A stretch of DNA of 64,000 nt from Eublepharis macularius (lineage: Eukaryota; Chordata; Lepidosauria; Squamata; Eublepharidae), in assembly GCF_028583425.1 (NCBI RefSeq), contig NC_072801.1, positions 17,752,001-17,816,000 of the forward strand, in the 5' to 3' direction. Each line of letters opens with the position of its first letter. The stretch's first letter is position 1. The notes under the pieces are model-generated. The model was not told the origin of the DNA. It did no database searches and saw nothing but the letters and a program-made list of their open reading frames with translations. The position numbers and the translations under genes were made by a program. Positions 6,421-55,300 of this stretch are shown here, piece after piece.

Positions 6421-6711
6421 CTTGTTTTAATTAGCACAAAAGCATTTTGTGCTAATTAATCCCAGCCTCAGTCAGGCTGGGATTGAATAGAGACTATGAA
6501 TGGTTATCTCATTATCAGAAGTAACTGACTTCCTTAACAGAAGCAAACTGATCTCCATATCAGAAGCTACTGTTTGCATCTACTCCGCCCTCCCCTCTCC
6601 ACCTATATATCTGACCAGTTTCTTCTTGCCCTCCATGCATCTGACGAAGAGAACTGTGATTGTTGTTGTGGGTTTTCCGGGCTGTATTGCCGTGGTCTTG
6701 GCATTGTAGTT

Positions 6712-6752
6712 CCTGACGTTTCGCCAGCAGCTGTGGCTGGCATCTTCAGAGG
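6712..6752 (-). ncRNA. Hammerhead-ribozyme-like motif, family B
   Basis: On the minus strand the order is stem I CCT, core CTGAAGA, stem II GCCAGC/GCTGGC around CACAGCT, then GAAA, stem III CG, cleavage triplet GTC, and stem I return AGG. All conserved hammerhead positions are met, with a two-pair stem III that has no loop, the minimal type reported for Penelope-like elements. Confidence 0.75.
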
Positions 6753-6891
6753 TGTAGCACCAAAAGGCAGAGATCTCTCAGTGTCACAGTCACTGTCACA
6801 GTCAGTCAGTGTCACAGTCAGTGTCACAGTCAGTCACCGTCACAGTCAGTGTCACTGTGACACTGAGAGATCTCTGCCTTTTGGTGCTACA

Positions 6892-6932
6892 CCTCTGAAG
6901 ATGCCAGCCACAGCTGCTGGCGAAACGTCAGG
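6892..6932 (+). ncRNA. Hammerhead-ribozyme-like motif, family B
   Basis: This is the mirror partner of 6712-6752. CCT is at 6892-6894, CTGAAGA at 6895-6901, GCCAGC/GCTGGC form stem II, GAAACGTC is at 6922-6929, and AGG closes stem I at 6930-6932. The canonical GTC cleavage triplet is intact. Confidence 0.75.
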
Positions 6933-7159
6933 AACTACAATGCCAAGACCACAGCAATACAGCCCGGAAAACCCACAACAACCATCGTTCTCCGGCCGTG
7001 AAAGCCTTCGACAATACATAGAACTGTGATTCTCGAAAGCTTATGCTACAATAAAGTTGGTTAGTCTTAAAGGTGCTACTGGACTCTTTTTGATCAGTCT
7101 CTTATACTGCTTAGCCCTTCTGCAAAGAAAACCCACTGACTCCCATCAAGAAGAAGAAG

Positions 7160-9230: not shown

Positions 9231-9270
9231 GCATAAGCTTTTGAGAATCACAGCTCTCTTCTTCAGATGC
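9231..9270 (-). ncRNA. Hammerhead-ribozyme-like motif, family A
   Basis: On the minus strand: GCAT, core CTGAAGA, stem II GAGAGC and its partner around TGTG, AAAGCTT, then ATGC. The core fits the consensus, while the linker after stem II is slightly diverged. Confidence 0.55.
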
Positions 9271-9320
9271 ATCGGACGAAGAGAGCTGTGATTCTCGAAA
9301 GCTTATGCTACAGTAAAGAT

Positions 9321-9360
9321 ACATCTGAAGAAGAGAGCTGTGATTCTCGAAAGCTTATGC
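9321..9360 (+). ncRNA. Hammerhead-ribozyme-like motif, family A (tandem unit)
   Basis: Core CTGAAGA is followed by the stem II hairpin GAGAGC/ATTCTC around TGTG, GAAA, GC-TT and ATGC. Stem I pairing is imperfect (ACAT with ATGC). It is the middle of three forward units; its neighbours are at 9269-9308 and 9373-9412. Confidence 0.55.
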
Positions 9361-10699
9361 TACAGTAAAGATGTATCTGAAGAAGAGAGCTGTGATTCTT
9401 GAAAGCTTATGCTACAGTAAAGTTGGTTAGTCTTAAAGGTGCTACTGGACTCTTTTCTATTTTGTAAAGTATAACACTCCTTTTCCAAGAGGGATCATCC
9501 CAATTTTCAGTGAGTGGTGGACCTAAATTGGTGGGGGTGGGGGATTGGAATTAGCAACACTGCTCACCAGAAATCTGAGCTGGCTCAGTAATTCTTCCTT
9601 TCTGCTGTTCTCTGGGCTAATTGTTCTATGTCCCCAACTAAGCTATCAGCCATGCTACTAGCAGTTTGCCTGGGGTTGTGGGGGAGGAAAGCAGTTAGTT
9701 AATTATGATGATTAATTTCTCAGGCCAAAGATGATCATAAAAGCAGAATCATCCACACTTCCAATCCAGTAGACAGAGTGCAGAGCAAAGGCAGATAACC
9801 AAACACTCATCTTTTCCTGAGCTGACATTTTCACTCACATGCATTACTGCCTTGGAACAAAAAAAGATCCAATCATTTCAATACATTGCACTGTTTCTTA
9901 TTATGGCCTCTACTTCTGAGACCAGGACAACTGCCCCCATTGCCCCTTTAAAAATTGGGCCAGCTATATCTGAATGTAAATCCAAAACCCAATTACTCTG
10001 CTGAAATCACTGACTGCACCAGAGTAATTAACTTGTAAGATTAAAACCTTAGGACACAGTCTGGAGAAGATTAACTGAAGCTAAATTCACTAGGGCCCAG
10101 ACATACTAGCTCTCCCTGGATCACATCCTTGAAGAGAAATTCTTAATTGGGAATTAATTCCACTGAAATCATTGGGACCTTGTTTCTTTCCAAGGCAAAT
10201 ATAGGCAGAAATGAGGTGTTAAAAGTAACCCAGTCTAATCTAAAACTCAGTAATGCCACTTAATTTATCCCCCCTGGAATATGTCACCTTGATTGATCAC
10301 TTTCAAAGAATTCAGAGGTGGGGAGATGATTTGAGTTCGGTCTATGCTACACAGTAAATGGGAAAATATGCATCAAACTGTCTACTAAAATAAATGTCAA
10401 AGTTACATTCAATTATTATTATATACTTCCTGGCAGCTTAAGCTATTGCAAATTCAATAGTATTATCAACTGACGGGGGAGTTATATATAGCCATAAAGC
10501 GCATGAAAAGAGATTACGCCCATCCATCCAACGTATATTTAGAACTGAAAAGCTAAACAGCAATAGTTATTAGATAAGCTGGGGGGTGCGGGGTGACAGT
10601 CACACACCCAGTTATTCAAGTGCCAGAAATTTGGACGTCACAACAATGGTCACCAAAAAATATAGCTGCAAAGCCCAGTTGGCTGCCTTGGACATCACG

Positions 10700-17520: not shown

Positions 17521-17656
17521 AGGTCAAAATCTTGAGTATTGCTAGGCTTTGGGATCACAGTAAAATAAGCATCCCGCAGCAATAAACTGGATGTCACTCC
17601 ATTGATCACCAGGGTTGGCTTGGCTGATCTTGCTGGCTAGGCGGATATATCCTATG

Positions 17657-49300: not shown

Positions 49301-52300
49301 AAGAACTTTAATGTGCCTTGAACTTCACTCTGGGGTTAGAGGGTAGATTTTGCCGCAGCATCTGATTCCTGTTCTCTCCTCACGTCCCCATTTGGGGATC
49401 TCCAGTACAGCACACACAAAAACAGTGCAAGTTCAGAGACCTGTGAGTGGCTGCGGCTCACCCTTTTCACTCTCCAATCAGACATCCTGTGCTGTTGTTT
49501 CTGACAGACATGCAGCTAGGGCAAATCTTGGGTTGAAATGGAGGTGCTGGTGCACAACACTGAACAGGCAGTCTGTTGGTGTGTGAACAGATCTCCAAAC
49601 AGGAGCCAGGAGTTCACATGTTCAGCCAGAGCTACTATAGGCAGGCCCTTCCCTGAAGGAGCCCTTTGTACCTGCTGGGGATGTGGTGTGCCCTTCCTTA
49701 ACAAGGCCAGCCGAGATGGGGAGGCAGCCTGGTACCCCTGCATTTTGCCTGGGCCCCACGGGAAAAATAAAACAATAATTACTGCTTTGAGAACACTTTG
49801 TAAAGCTTTTACTATATAAAAGACAAGCCGTATTGGCGACGACCAGGGCTTTTTTTCAGGGGGAACACGGTGGAACGGAGTTCCAGAACCTCTTGAAAAT
49901 GTTCACATGGCTGGTGGCCCCGCCCCCTGATCTCCAGGCAGAGGGCAGTTTAGATTGCCCTCGCGCGGAGGGCAATCTCAACTCCCCTCTGTCTGGAGAT
50001 CAGGGGGCAGGGCCACCAGCCATGTGACCATTTTCTCTGAGGGCAACCCACTGAGTTCCACCCCATCTCTTCCCAGAAAAAAAGCCCTGACGACGACTCA
50101 CTTTTTATCCTCACGCAGGCGCATTGCCGACAACTCTGGTATCGAGGCTGCTGCCAAGCACCCACTTGCCGCTGGGAGGGGGCCTGCCGAATAGGCCGCC
50201 TAAGCACTCCTCCCTGCACCTCCCCTCAGCGTTCCCCCCCCCCCCCACTCTGGCTTCCAGGCTCCTGCAAAGCGCCCACTTGCCGCTGGAAGGGGGCCTG
50301 CCAAATTAGTTTCTAGAGCCTATTGTATTTTTTCACACAAAAGGCATTGTTTCTAGTACATACATAAAACTAGTGAGAAAGAAAGAAGTGCATCAAGCCG
50401 GAATCTCTGTTTGAAAAGGAGCAGCTAAATTTGTGTTTGAGTCTCCATTTGATAATTAGTAGGTCCTTATCTTTTTTCATGTTCACTGTGAAACATATTG
50501 TCAGCCATACTTTCAGATTTTCCTCCTTTTAATTTTGTAAATGAAAATAGTGTCTTCTGTGTTGATTCAGTTCTTGACCCCTTTGATGTTGCATGCCTTT
50601 CTGTTGTAGGCTTGTATTGTGCAAGAGGAAAGGGATTACACATGCCTGTGCCCCCTTTAAAAGTCTTGTTTCAGTACTCATGGAACAAAGCACACCTTTT
50701 CCCATCCAAGTTAAGCAATGTCTCAAACTGGGCTTGAGTTTATCCACATACAAAAGAAGCAATTGTTCATCATGTCTTGTTCCCCCCCCCCAGTCAGTAA
50801 CTGGATAGCCCATTGATACAATATCTATCTTGGCCTCAGAGTTGAGATGTAATAACGGTACTGGGGGTCATAGAATCATTGGGAAAATGAAAGGAGGACT
50901 TTAGAACAATAAACCTCTTTGACCAAAAATCCAGTACAGGGTGGAGTGGAGGGGTGTGTGTGTGCGCAGCATGGTAGAGTGGCCAGCCCAAACAAAATAA
51001 GAGGTTGCTGGGGGCAGGTGATGGTGCATCATAGGTTATGCTTGCTTATGGTATATATACCTGCAGCCTTGGCTCACGTTAGTCCACTTCTGTATTTATT
51101 TCTTCCTTCTTCCATTGGATCCTCACCACCATTTGGTTCTCCCTGGTCCAACACCCTAACCACTGTACCATACAGACTCTCCTCGTTGGGCAGCTGTGGA
51201 CTAATTTTGGGATCAACATGAGCTCCTCTGCTCCTCCTCCACAGTTGACTTCATTTAATGTCTACATATCCCAGAGATGTTGTACCATGTTTTCTTGTTG
51301 TGCGCATGCTGATTCTGCTGCTGCTGTGCAAAGCATGCCTTTAAAGGGGGCTTTTTTACTTGTTCTCAGAGGTTCGAAAGGCATTCAGGTACGTTCTCAG
51401 CACATGGCCTTCTAAAGCCATCATTCGGTCACAAAGATCAGGTGTAATCCTATGTCCTGCTCTTCTGATGCAGGTACCTCTCCTGGGCCTTAGACACAAA
51501 CCAGGAAGAGCGAGACAAAGGTAAAACGGTGGAAGTGGGTCGCGCCTATTTTGAAACGGAGAAGAAGCACTTCACAATCCTAGATGCTCCTGGGCATAAG
51601 AGCTTTGTTCCAAATATGATTGGTGGTGCATCTCAAGCCGATCTAGCTGTGTTGGTAAGAAGGCACCGCGTCCCCCTTATTTGTACTGTTGTGATGATGT
51701 ATCTTTGTGATGATGGGTCTCCATCTAGCCATATATTTTTATCCTTCCTTTTCCTCTATTGAGCTCAGGGTGATGTACATGGTCTCCTCTCCTTTCCCAG
51801 TTTGTCCTCACAACAGCCCTGTGAGGTAGGGTTAGCCTGAGCGAGTTTAACTGGTCTACGGTTCCCAGTCAAGCTTCCATAGCAGAGCGTTAAGAGTTAC
51901 ACCTGGATCCCCGTCCCCCGCCCGTCCCCATTCCTAAGTCAGGCACTCTAAGCATGATAGAGAATTGTTTTTAATAGTACTCTGCTGCCAATTACAGACT
52001 TTTCTTCTACCACTTACCCAGATATAATCCAGGATTCCAACTACAGTGATATAAAGAAATATGAGTTTTACGTATTGTCAAAGGCTTTCACGGCCGGAGA
52101 ACGATGGTTGTTGTGGGTTTTCCGGGCTGTATTGCCGTGGTCTTGGCATTGTAGTTCCTGACGTTTCGCCAGCAGCTGTGGCTGGCATCTTCAGAGGTGT
52201 AGCACCAAAAGATAGAGATCTCTCAGTGTCACTAAGTTGACACTTAGTGACACTTAGTGACACTAAGTTGTCACTGAGAGATCTCTATCTTTTGGTGCTA

Positions 52301-55300
52301 CACCTCTGAAGATGCCAGCCACAGCTGCTGGTGAAACGTTTCGCCAGCAGCTGTGGCTGGCATCTTCAGAGGTGTAGCACCAAAAGATAGAGATCTCTCA
52401 GTGTCACTAAGTTGACACTTAGTGACACTAAGTTGTCACTGAGAGATCTCTATCTTTTGGTGCTACACCTCTGAAGATGCCAGCCACAGCTGCTGGCGAA
52501 ATGTCAGGAACTACAATGCCAAGACCACGGCAATACAGCCCGGAAAACCCACAACAACCAAATATGAGTTTTATTGTTACACAAAACTCGCATGATGTTC
52601 CTGGGGCCTGATGCGTACTGAGCTACCTTATCCTTATGCTTAAATACTTTAATGCTAAATTGTTTACAGAAAAGAATGAATCAAAATATCAAAAAGATTA
52701 ATACAAATATCTCTTCAAAATTACATTTCCCAGGATACACCTCACCATACAAGCTTGAATGACAGGTCCGTCATGCCTCCCTTACAATACGAACACCTCA
52801 AATGCTGGAGCCATACTTTTGTTATGAGTTCAGAATGCTTCTGAGAAGTAACACTTCCGAAGCTGAAATCTTAGTTGTGGAATGAAAACAAAAAGATATT
52901 TACAGTTGCCAGAAACTTTCTCGCTTGTTATGAGTTCAGATTGACCTGCAGCTTAATCTCTCCAATAAAGGAGAAGGAATTTGCCACTGAAGCAAATTTG
53001 CCTTCCGGGTTCGTGTCTAACTTGAATGAATGCTCACACATGGGTTTTAGAAGAGGGGGTCCCAAAAAAGCCCCTTAACAAAGCACTAGGCCACACTGGG
53101 TCTACTAGAGGTAACAGCTGTTACAGTGCGGTCATCCTTCTGTTTGTGTTTTGTACATGCTTGGGAGTGGCAGCGGTCCTGAGACTTACTGCCTGAACAG
53201 TTCAGCCTGTGGCTGCTTCATGAGGCCTGCCACGCAAGCGCCGTCGTTGAGCTTGCTCTCCGGTCTAAGTGGAGAATCGGAAAACAGAGCTATGCCTCTT
53301 CACTCAAAGCCCCGTCTGATTCCATTTTCCTCCATGCTTAGGTCATTTCTGCAAGGAAAGGAGAGTTCGAAACCGGTTTTGAGAAGGGGGGACAAACAAG
53401 AGAGCATGCCATGTTGGCCAAAACAGCTGGTGTAAAACACTTAATAGTTCTTATTAATAAAATGGATGATCCTACTGTGAACTGGAGCAATGAAAGGTAA
53501 GAGCATGAAATTCTTCAGACATAGAAACAACGCATGGAAGTAGCAATTCTTCTGGCTTTCTGTGTGTTCTGAAGTGTGTGGTTCTTAAGCTTTCCTTTGC
53601 ATTAAAAATGGGATTTGCTTCATTATGCACTTGCATGCCCCATTATTTCAGTCTTTGGGCATCTAATGTACTTGGGCTCACGATGCCCAGATTTGGCTCA
53701 AAGATATAACATGACACACTACATCACTATGTGCCTGTTACGACCCTCTTTATTATTCAGTTAGATTTTGCCTCTGGGTAGATTGCTGCCACCAGAAATT
53801 ATATTCCAAAATAGTTAATTTAAATTTCCCTTTTAATAACGTGCCCAAGCGTTAGGCTCCTTGGTGGGACTATGTGGCCCTGAGGATAGGAATGGGATAT
53901 AGCAATGACAGATACTCTGGGATGGAAAAAAACAAACAAACCCCAAACTCTTTATTTTTACAAGAAGGTTATCGGTTTCATATTATTTCTTAAGCTTGAT
54001 GGTTTCAAAGATAATTATTAGTCCTTAAAGTTTCTTTTCATAGGCTCAGTCACACAGATATACATAAACTTTCTCAGACACACATACAGTTTGCCTGCTT
54101 CAGATAGATCACTCACTCACTCACTCACTCACTCAAATGTACATAGACTTTCTCTCAGGTGCATACAAAGTTTGCCTGTCTCAACCAGAATCAATATTTC
54201 TCTCAGAAATGCATAGACACCCTCAGGCTGCACTCAGCTTGGCTGTCAAAACCAGAAAGCAGAATGAGTCTTTTCTCTCCACTCAGTAACTAAAAACAGC
54301 AGTTCACTCTGCCCACACTCTCAGTCATCAGCCAATCATCTCACTCACTCATCCCGCTCTTTCACCCCCCACTCTTCATCTGACCCACACCAAGCATTTA
54401 AAGACACACAAATCATTACGGTGCCCTTCCTGAGAGAAGAGTTGGTATTAAGGCCACACCTTCGCTCCTAATAATACCTAAGTGCTGCTGATGGACTTGC
54501 TTGCAGGCTTCTGTTAATGTAGCCCCTCTTCATAAAAACATCGCGCCCCCACCTCCAGCTACTTGTCTGGGTCTGTGACAGCTCTGCGCATGTGCTGTCA
54601 ATTTGGAGAACAAAGGTTTTGCAGAGCACTGCCCAGAACATTTTGGGGTGGGGTGGAATCTTGCTCATAGTATAGGGAGAAAAGTTACCAGCTGTAGCCA
54701 AGAATATTGGCATGCTCTCTTCAAAATTAACGACTGGCAAATGTTCATAAGACTGCAAAAGCTGAAGGTTGCCTTACTGATGAAAATAAACCACCAGAGA
54801 GTTCCACATGTCATATGAACACATGAAGCTGCCTTATAATGAATCAGACCTTTTAGTCTATCAGTGTCAGTATTGCCTACTCAGACGGGCAGCAGCTCTC
54901 CAAGGCCTCAGGCAGAGGTCTTTCATATCACTTTCTACCTGATCCCTTTACCTGGAGATGCTGGGGATTGAACCTGGGTCTTTCTGCATACCAAGCAGAT
55001 GGTTGACTGCTGAGCCATGGCCCCTCCCTGCTCCTTCCCTCCCCACGTTCCAGATGACTTAAACCAGAGACACACCTTTTCAGTCCCAGTGAACACTTTT
55101 TTGCACTCAACCTCTGTGCTGAAAGTTGCAGATCTTAACCTGCAGGGGGTGCCAAAGTGTGATTCTCCCTGTGGCTGCACTGCATTGGGATGTATCCAGA
55201 TTGCCGCAAGCTCAAAAGCACGCATCCCCCTTGTCAAAAATAGCCTTATGTGTATGGAAGTTTGGTATTGTCGAGCGAGGGCTCCCCGCATCAGGACCTC

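Follow-up and report, generated by a model that had tools for sequence, protein, structure and literature searches.

A palindrome with hammerhead-like motifs in the genome of Eublepharis macularius is best explained by insertion of a Penelope-like element

The conserved core of type I hammerhead ribozymes reads CUGANGA...GAAA...UH, and in the canonical form stem II directly follows A9. Hammerheads in Penelope-like elements (PLEs) were reportedly described by Cervera and de la Pena in 2014. Minimal PLE hammerheads, inverted pseudo-LTRs (pLTRs), junction palindromes and tails are already known, as far as the available sections of the relevant articles go (PMC6155905, PMC7229834, PMC3846280, PMC11167929). 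According to such sections, minimal type I hammerheads without helix III occur in the terminal repeats of PLEs (PMC6155905, PMC7229834). In PAc, the Poseidon element of Anolis carolinensis, reverse transcription has two internal start sites close to each other, and ‘tail’ is the name of the segment that separates them; the PAc protein cuts and extends both strands in vitro, with a start site that does not differ between strands, and the PAc hammerhead cleaves only in the presence of the PLE protein, while its mutants still insert in vitro (PMC11167929). The available part of the work on rotifers describes, for Pen2a_Av and other Penelope elements, inverted pLTRs, junction palindromes, an ORF start inside the pLTR, target duplications of 8-10 bp and a 31-bp tail that is optional on one inverted pLTR (PMC3846280); the word ‘hammerhead’ has 0 occurrences in that paper. 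Animal retrozymes also carry a type I hammerhead in short repeats, and tandems are the form described for them in the sections available (PMC7229834).

The palindrome that we study here lies in a window of 64,000 nucleotides, the whole stretch of Eublepharis macularius DNA that was analysed, and its repeat is called family B. Its arms, at 6658-6802 and 6842-6986, form an inverted repeat that is 95% complementary. The element itself occupies 6662-7019, so that the limits of the initial annotation (6661-7019) were off by a single base, and it is flanked by two copies of AGAACTGTGATT at 6650-6661 and 7020-7031, a 12-bp target duplication. The left, inverted arm (6662-6802, minus strand) is tailless and has reverse-transcription start site 1 (ACAACAAC) at its outer end. 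The palindrome centre (6803-6841) holds the 5′ ends of both arms within a TGTCAC-rich repeat, and the right arm (6842-7019, plus strand) consists of a pLTR piece, the hammerhead motif and the first 119 nt of the PLE ORF, its outer end being start site 2, with a tail. The same 41 nt are found in each arm, at 6892-6932 (plus strand) and 6712-6752 (minus strand), as a minimal hammerhead layout. In the right arm this layout reads CCT (6892-6894), CTGAAGA (6895-6901), an unpaired T (6902), GCCAGC (6903-6908) and GCTGGC (6916-6921) as the two strands of stem II around the loop CACAGCT (6909-6915), GAAA (6922-6925), and then CG, TC and AGG up to 6932. The ATG of the PLE ORF (6901-6903, plus strand) overlaps the core at A9, and the cut predicted from the hammerhead scheme, after C6929, would fall 26 nt after this ATG, whose G is at 6903. 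Further downstream, the AC-rich stretch CCCACAACAACC (6972-6983) is, judging from the ends of copies, the probable start site 1 of this arm, and the tail, the 36 nt by which the two start sites are separated, occupies 6984-7019. The initial annotation had correctly placed the layout on both arms and had left out T6902 between CTGAAGA and stem II; its spelling of the motif without this base gave 0 matches in a genome search.

The family B hammerhead layout is real and not a product of chance, as had been proposed. A scan for stem I of at least 3 bp, stem II of at least 4 bp and a short or loopless stem III, criteria shaped on the motif itself, gave 7 matches in the window, where 200 dinucleotide shuffles gave 0.02 on average and never more than 1 (4 of the 200 had any match). 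In a near-identical scan the seven comprised three family A and four family B matches, that is, two families and not seven independent events. The simpler pattern CTGANGA-N6..36-GAAAC gave 8 window matches, five of them in family B, against 1.53 expected. Family B has the conserved core CUGANGA...GAAA...UH, and it lacks helix III and sits in a terminal repeat like the minimal type I hammerheads of PLEs described in the available sections of PMC6155905 and PMC7229834. The identification as a hammerhead is right in that ribozymes of this type are known from PLEs (PMC11167929 and the available part of PMC6155905). Stem II does not directly follow A9, since the unpaired T6902 intervenes, and we therefore call it a hammerhead-like motif of the PLE kind and not a canonical hammerhead. 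The same offset appears in family A (CTGACGA-A-GAGA, one base before stem II), and the extra unpaired base, which family A, family B and a weak candidate, family C, have in common, is a difference from the minimal PLE type I hammerheads. The A-CG-U segment of family B could allow either two loopless stem III pairs or, in a dimer, pairing of the self-complementary ACGU. As a single strand, the 41-mer has a lowest-energy fold of -14.5 kcal/mol in which CUGA pairs with UCAG, whereas the hammerhead fold reaches -10.8 kcal/mol, a value that includes neither stem III nor tertiary contacts; such a preference for another fold is in keeping with a ribozyme that needs help. The covariance-model scan which the initial annotation had put forward as a check did not match the Rfam hammerhead models, neither at the gathering score in the whole window nor up to E 10 in the palindrome stretch, and the family A region likewise received no hammerhead call. 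The best sub-threshold Rfam matches (e.g., MIR4371, 63.8 bits against a gathering score of 110) look like effects of a long hairpin.

Copies of family B are extremely abundant: the 2.24-Gb genome holds 48,264 copies that differ from the 41-nt motif by no more than 3 mismatches, and a reversed control gave 0. Longer copies run from the family B pLTR, at their inner side, into an open frame with GVYRIPCSCGQVYIG and GVY...YIG (L007, L019), and in the opposite direction the PLE ORF that opens at the ATG overlapping the core stays open beyond the tail (L104, L105). The C-terminus of this frame matches the Pfam family T5orf172, which we take to be GIY-YIG-like, weakly (18.0 bits, below the cut-off of 20). 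In a tblastn search it matched 15 of the 30 loci that had been fetched with the Pfam GIY-YIG profile (E 1e-6 to 8e-4), and at one of these, L087, the strongest match is itself a copy of family B; a PDB search with the same C-terminus gave a single match at E 0.45 and was not useful. Motif, neighbourhood and tblastn together argue for a GIY-YIG C-terminus, for which the profile signal is weak. The structural marks of PLEs, namely pLTRs, an optional 30-40-nt tail, a short target duplication and a tandem or inverted arrangement, are present in family B. Family B is very probably a 5′-truncated, head-to-head insertion of a Poseidon/PAc-type PLE with a GIY-YIG-like C-terminus, the telomerase-like reverse transcriptase domain that PLEs have in the same ORF not being among the parts recovered; of this reading, the copy number, the ends, the duplications, the ORF start, the link to the GIY-YIG-like C-terminus and the variants shared between arms are observed. 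The palindrome is best explained by the insertion of such an element and not by the ribozyme.

The likeness to PAc, as judged from the published description of that element, is close. In both elements C3 and G8 of the hammerhead precede the start codon and the cut falls 26 nt after it, the start region is AC-rich and lies just inside the ORF (positions 111-118 in PAc; start site 2 at ORF position 116-119 in family B), a tail of 30-40 nt separates two start sites, the C-terminus is of the GIY-YIG type and the targets are AT-rich (PMC11167929). The organisation reported for PAc is tandem or partially tandem (PMC11167929), whereas head-to-head copies are frequent in family B and follow a rule of one start site each. 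In its inverted pLTRs, junction palindromes, short target duplications, tail on one of the inverted pLTRs and ORF start inside the pLTR, family B resembles the rotifer elements, which differ from it in their low copy number and in the self-priming mechanism favoured for them in the available part of PMC3846280.

This rule emerges from the ends of the copies. The ends of family B copies are of two kinds, one after CCCACAACAACC (site 1) and the other some 36 nt further on, after CGACAATACA (site 2), and 16,093 exact tails were counted genome-wide. We compared 44 inverted arm pairs, defined as adjacent, outward-pointing arms with distinct left flanks: 41 had one end at each site, none had the same site twice and three were untyped (two in a four-arm insertion at 52071-52559 and one that ends short at L044), with only the partner end being informative in L001-L030, which were fetched with a tail-bearing query. 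An earlier count had given 26 of 29 pairs with one end each and 0 alike. The close minus-plus pairs L091-L101, taken from the exact-motif listing regardless of tails, showed one end each in 11 of 11 cases, as did all four of L106-L109, taken from the tail list for having a nearby partner. Three apparent palindromes with two tails turned up in the tail listing, outside the 44 pairs, and none was counted as clean: at two places L102 and L103 are near reverse complements, and by eye they resemble two adjoining insertions, and in L104 one ‘tail’ continues into the ORF. In the PLE literature searched, the rule of one start site each was not found, and the available part of PMC3846280 comes close with its tail optional on one inverted pLTR; the regularity is possibly new and, if it holds genome-wide, it would offer a testable handle on Penelope insertion. 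Target duplications measured 11-15 bp in 25 insertions and had 30% GC, a figure that stands without a background GC for comparison. Some complete pairs depart from this: L008, L042 and L092 have no clean duplication, L029 has one of only 6 bp, and in L091, L098 and L101 it is only 7-8 bp long. In three further cases two tails in direct orientation lie exactly 1349 bp from each other (G000 C1:2002083/2003432, 2282601/2283950 and 2430129/2431478), which could reflect either a segmental duplication or a direct-repeat form with an internal deletion.

The best reading of the family B insertions is priming of reverse transcription on both strands of the target. The protein of the element would cut the two target strands about 12 bp apart, and each free 3′ end would then prime reverse transcription on element RNA inside the start of the ORF, on one strand at the AC-rich site 1 and on the other at site 2, about 36 nt further in. 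Joining of the two cDNAs at their 5′ ends would leave a palindrome flanked by a target duplication of 12 bp, and the hammerhead, because it lies just 5′ of both start sites, would be carried along on both arms of even very short copies. The arms of one insertion have 17 rare variants in common (7 of them at one site) where 2.57 would be expected if they were independent, an indication that both arms come from one source; a further 56 variants are confined to one arm and can be explained by later mutation. The in vitro behaviour of PAc, with a start site that is independent of the strand, does not predict the rule of one site each. A possible explanation, which we advance tentatively, is an asymmetric complex that uses site 1 on one strand and site 2 on the other with RNA from the same source; if so, Penelope insertion would be a coordinated two-site, two-strand reaction and not two independent primings. 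We also considered two templates, on the strength of pLTR site Q 13, where tail arms have C 20 times and T 3 times, and tailless arms have C 7, T 16 and A 1 times. As evidence of two templates this was rejected, since L001-L030 had been chosen for their similarity to a C-bearing query and the arms of L091-L101 all have T where covered.

Fold-back self-priming, in which the second arm is copied from the first, is the mechanism argued for rotifer elements in the available part of PMC3846280, and it would account for the source-specific variants that the arms share. However, a copied arm should bear the same tail as its template, against the 41 of 44 pairs with one tailed and one tailless arm and the 0 of 44 alike. 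Target duplications moreover abut both kinds of end, and variants confined to a single arm also speak against copying, though later mutation can account for them; we consider self-priming rather unlikely in family B. Inverted arms within a target duplication are likewise what a fold-back DNA transposon or MITE with long terminal inverted repeats would leave, but here the outer ends of the arms differ by a fixed tail, the inner distance between arms varies freely from 13 to 1318 bp, and the sequence continues into a GIY-YIG-like ORF. In addition, 23 of 60 loci have a single family B match within the roughly 3 kb examined per locus, beyond which a farther partner is possible. Such a transposon can practically be dismissed.

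A non-autonomous, retrozyme-like element spreading as a ribozyme-cut circular RNA would produce head-to-tail arrays, and tandem arrays of 131-132-bp family B monomers with the motif in each do exist, at L027 (G000 C11:89913407-89915458) and at C12:75172672-75173364 (spacing 132). Yet tandems are not the usual form in family B, since a genome-wide search for one exact junction form gave at least 18 against 48,264 motif copies, and the monomers are joined at reverse-transcription start site 1 and not at the ribozyme cut. In both respects family B departs from the animal retrozymes in the available part of PMC7229834, although a type I hammerhead in short, sometimes tandem, repeats is common to them, and we regard a retrozyme as very unlikely. 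A second family B insertion in the window (52071-52559) has four arms between copies of a 14-bp duplication, AAATATGAGTTTTA, at 52057-52070 and 52560-52573. Inside this insertion the arms meet tail to tail at GAAACGTTTC, beside the site where the ribozyme is predicted to cut. With C at its variable position, the 20-mer of this junction has 0 exact matches genome-wide (the window copy, with T there, could not match), and we treat this ribozyme-linked junction as a one-off. Selection might also keep a functional ribozyme in the palindromic copies themselves, for instance to process read-through transcripts. Among 68 arms, the hammerhead piece has 17 substitutions in 2788 cells (0.6%), fewer than the downstream piece with 119 in 3468, or 52 in 3400 (1.5%) without the one site, accounting for 67, where the window copy itself is odd. 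Against this, the upstream piece is even less substituted (2 in 792), 10 of the 17 changes fall at four CpG positions, and the hammerhead rate is a low estimate because L001-L030 are best matches and some arms found by exact motif remain (the set excludes 21 of these; the few left remain where the same insertion is shown twice at some loci). Transcripts of the palindrome would presumably allow either motif to pair with the opposite arm, and the PAc mutants that still insert in vitro (PMC11167929) point in the same direction, as does the behaviour of stem II described below. Such selection seems very improbable, and in the short palindromes the ribozyme most likely travels as a passenger.

The initial annotation had proposed compensatory changes in the stems and loss of the core as checks. 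At pair 10.1/11.1, the single stem II pair tested, no compensatory excess was seen among the family B copies listed: of the 72 listed copies with A, 7 have T opposite, compared with 15 of the 100 listed copies with G. The listed non-G copies at position 10.1 comprise 72 with A, 26 with T and 2 with C, counted by eye from 100 of 125 non-G places in which the rest of the 35-mer is exact except for the partner base. The background is 100 of 29,884 places with G, and C or T opposite, all in the first 11 Mb of C1 and therefore a non-random sample. Loss of the core is small, with one substitution in 476 cells for CTGAAGA and one in 272 for GAAA, in a partly biased sample. Both checks are uninformative in family B because the copies examined are too alike. 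The recurrence of the motif, from which function had been argued, shows that a retrotransposon carries it and not that it is active in these copies. The ribozyme palindrome is thus placed in a known class, and the insertion mechanism would spread ribozyme-like motifs by the tens of thousands without individual copies having to be selected.

The initial annotation also saw in families A and B two unrelated families converging on one layout. Both are most simply terminal repeats of PLEs: family B runs into a GIY-YIG-like C-terminus, and one copy of family A, which has 31,758 near copies in the genome, starts 313 nt past the stop codon of a GIY-YIG ORF (L088). The shared layout is then most simply a feature of one class of elements and not a convergence, a reading that for family A comes from one locus. 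Family C (CTGAAGAGGT...GAAACATC; L069:2126 and L089:2123) lies about 310 nt past the stop codon of a GIY-YIG PLE ORF, a lead and not a proof: its stem II has only 2-3 bp, its stem I is weak, and a pattern scan gave 13 matches in 30 loci. A family A hammerhead copy (6638-6661 and 7020-7050) was the target of the family B insertion at 6662-7019, which interrupts it in stem II/loop II, where the left target duplication lies. At L020 the target duplication, AGAACTGTGGTT, is nearly identical to that at 6650-6661, and family A copies may be recurrent targets of family B insertion. Elsewhere in the window, family A forms head-to-tail monomers of about 53 bp at 9269-9412, two with the full layout (9322 and 9373) and the first with a changed core, and a partial match to 7SK RNA (17592-17643, 42.1 bits) is perhaps a pseudogene fragment.
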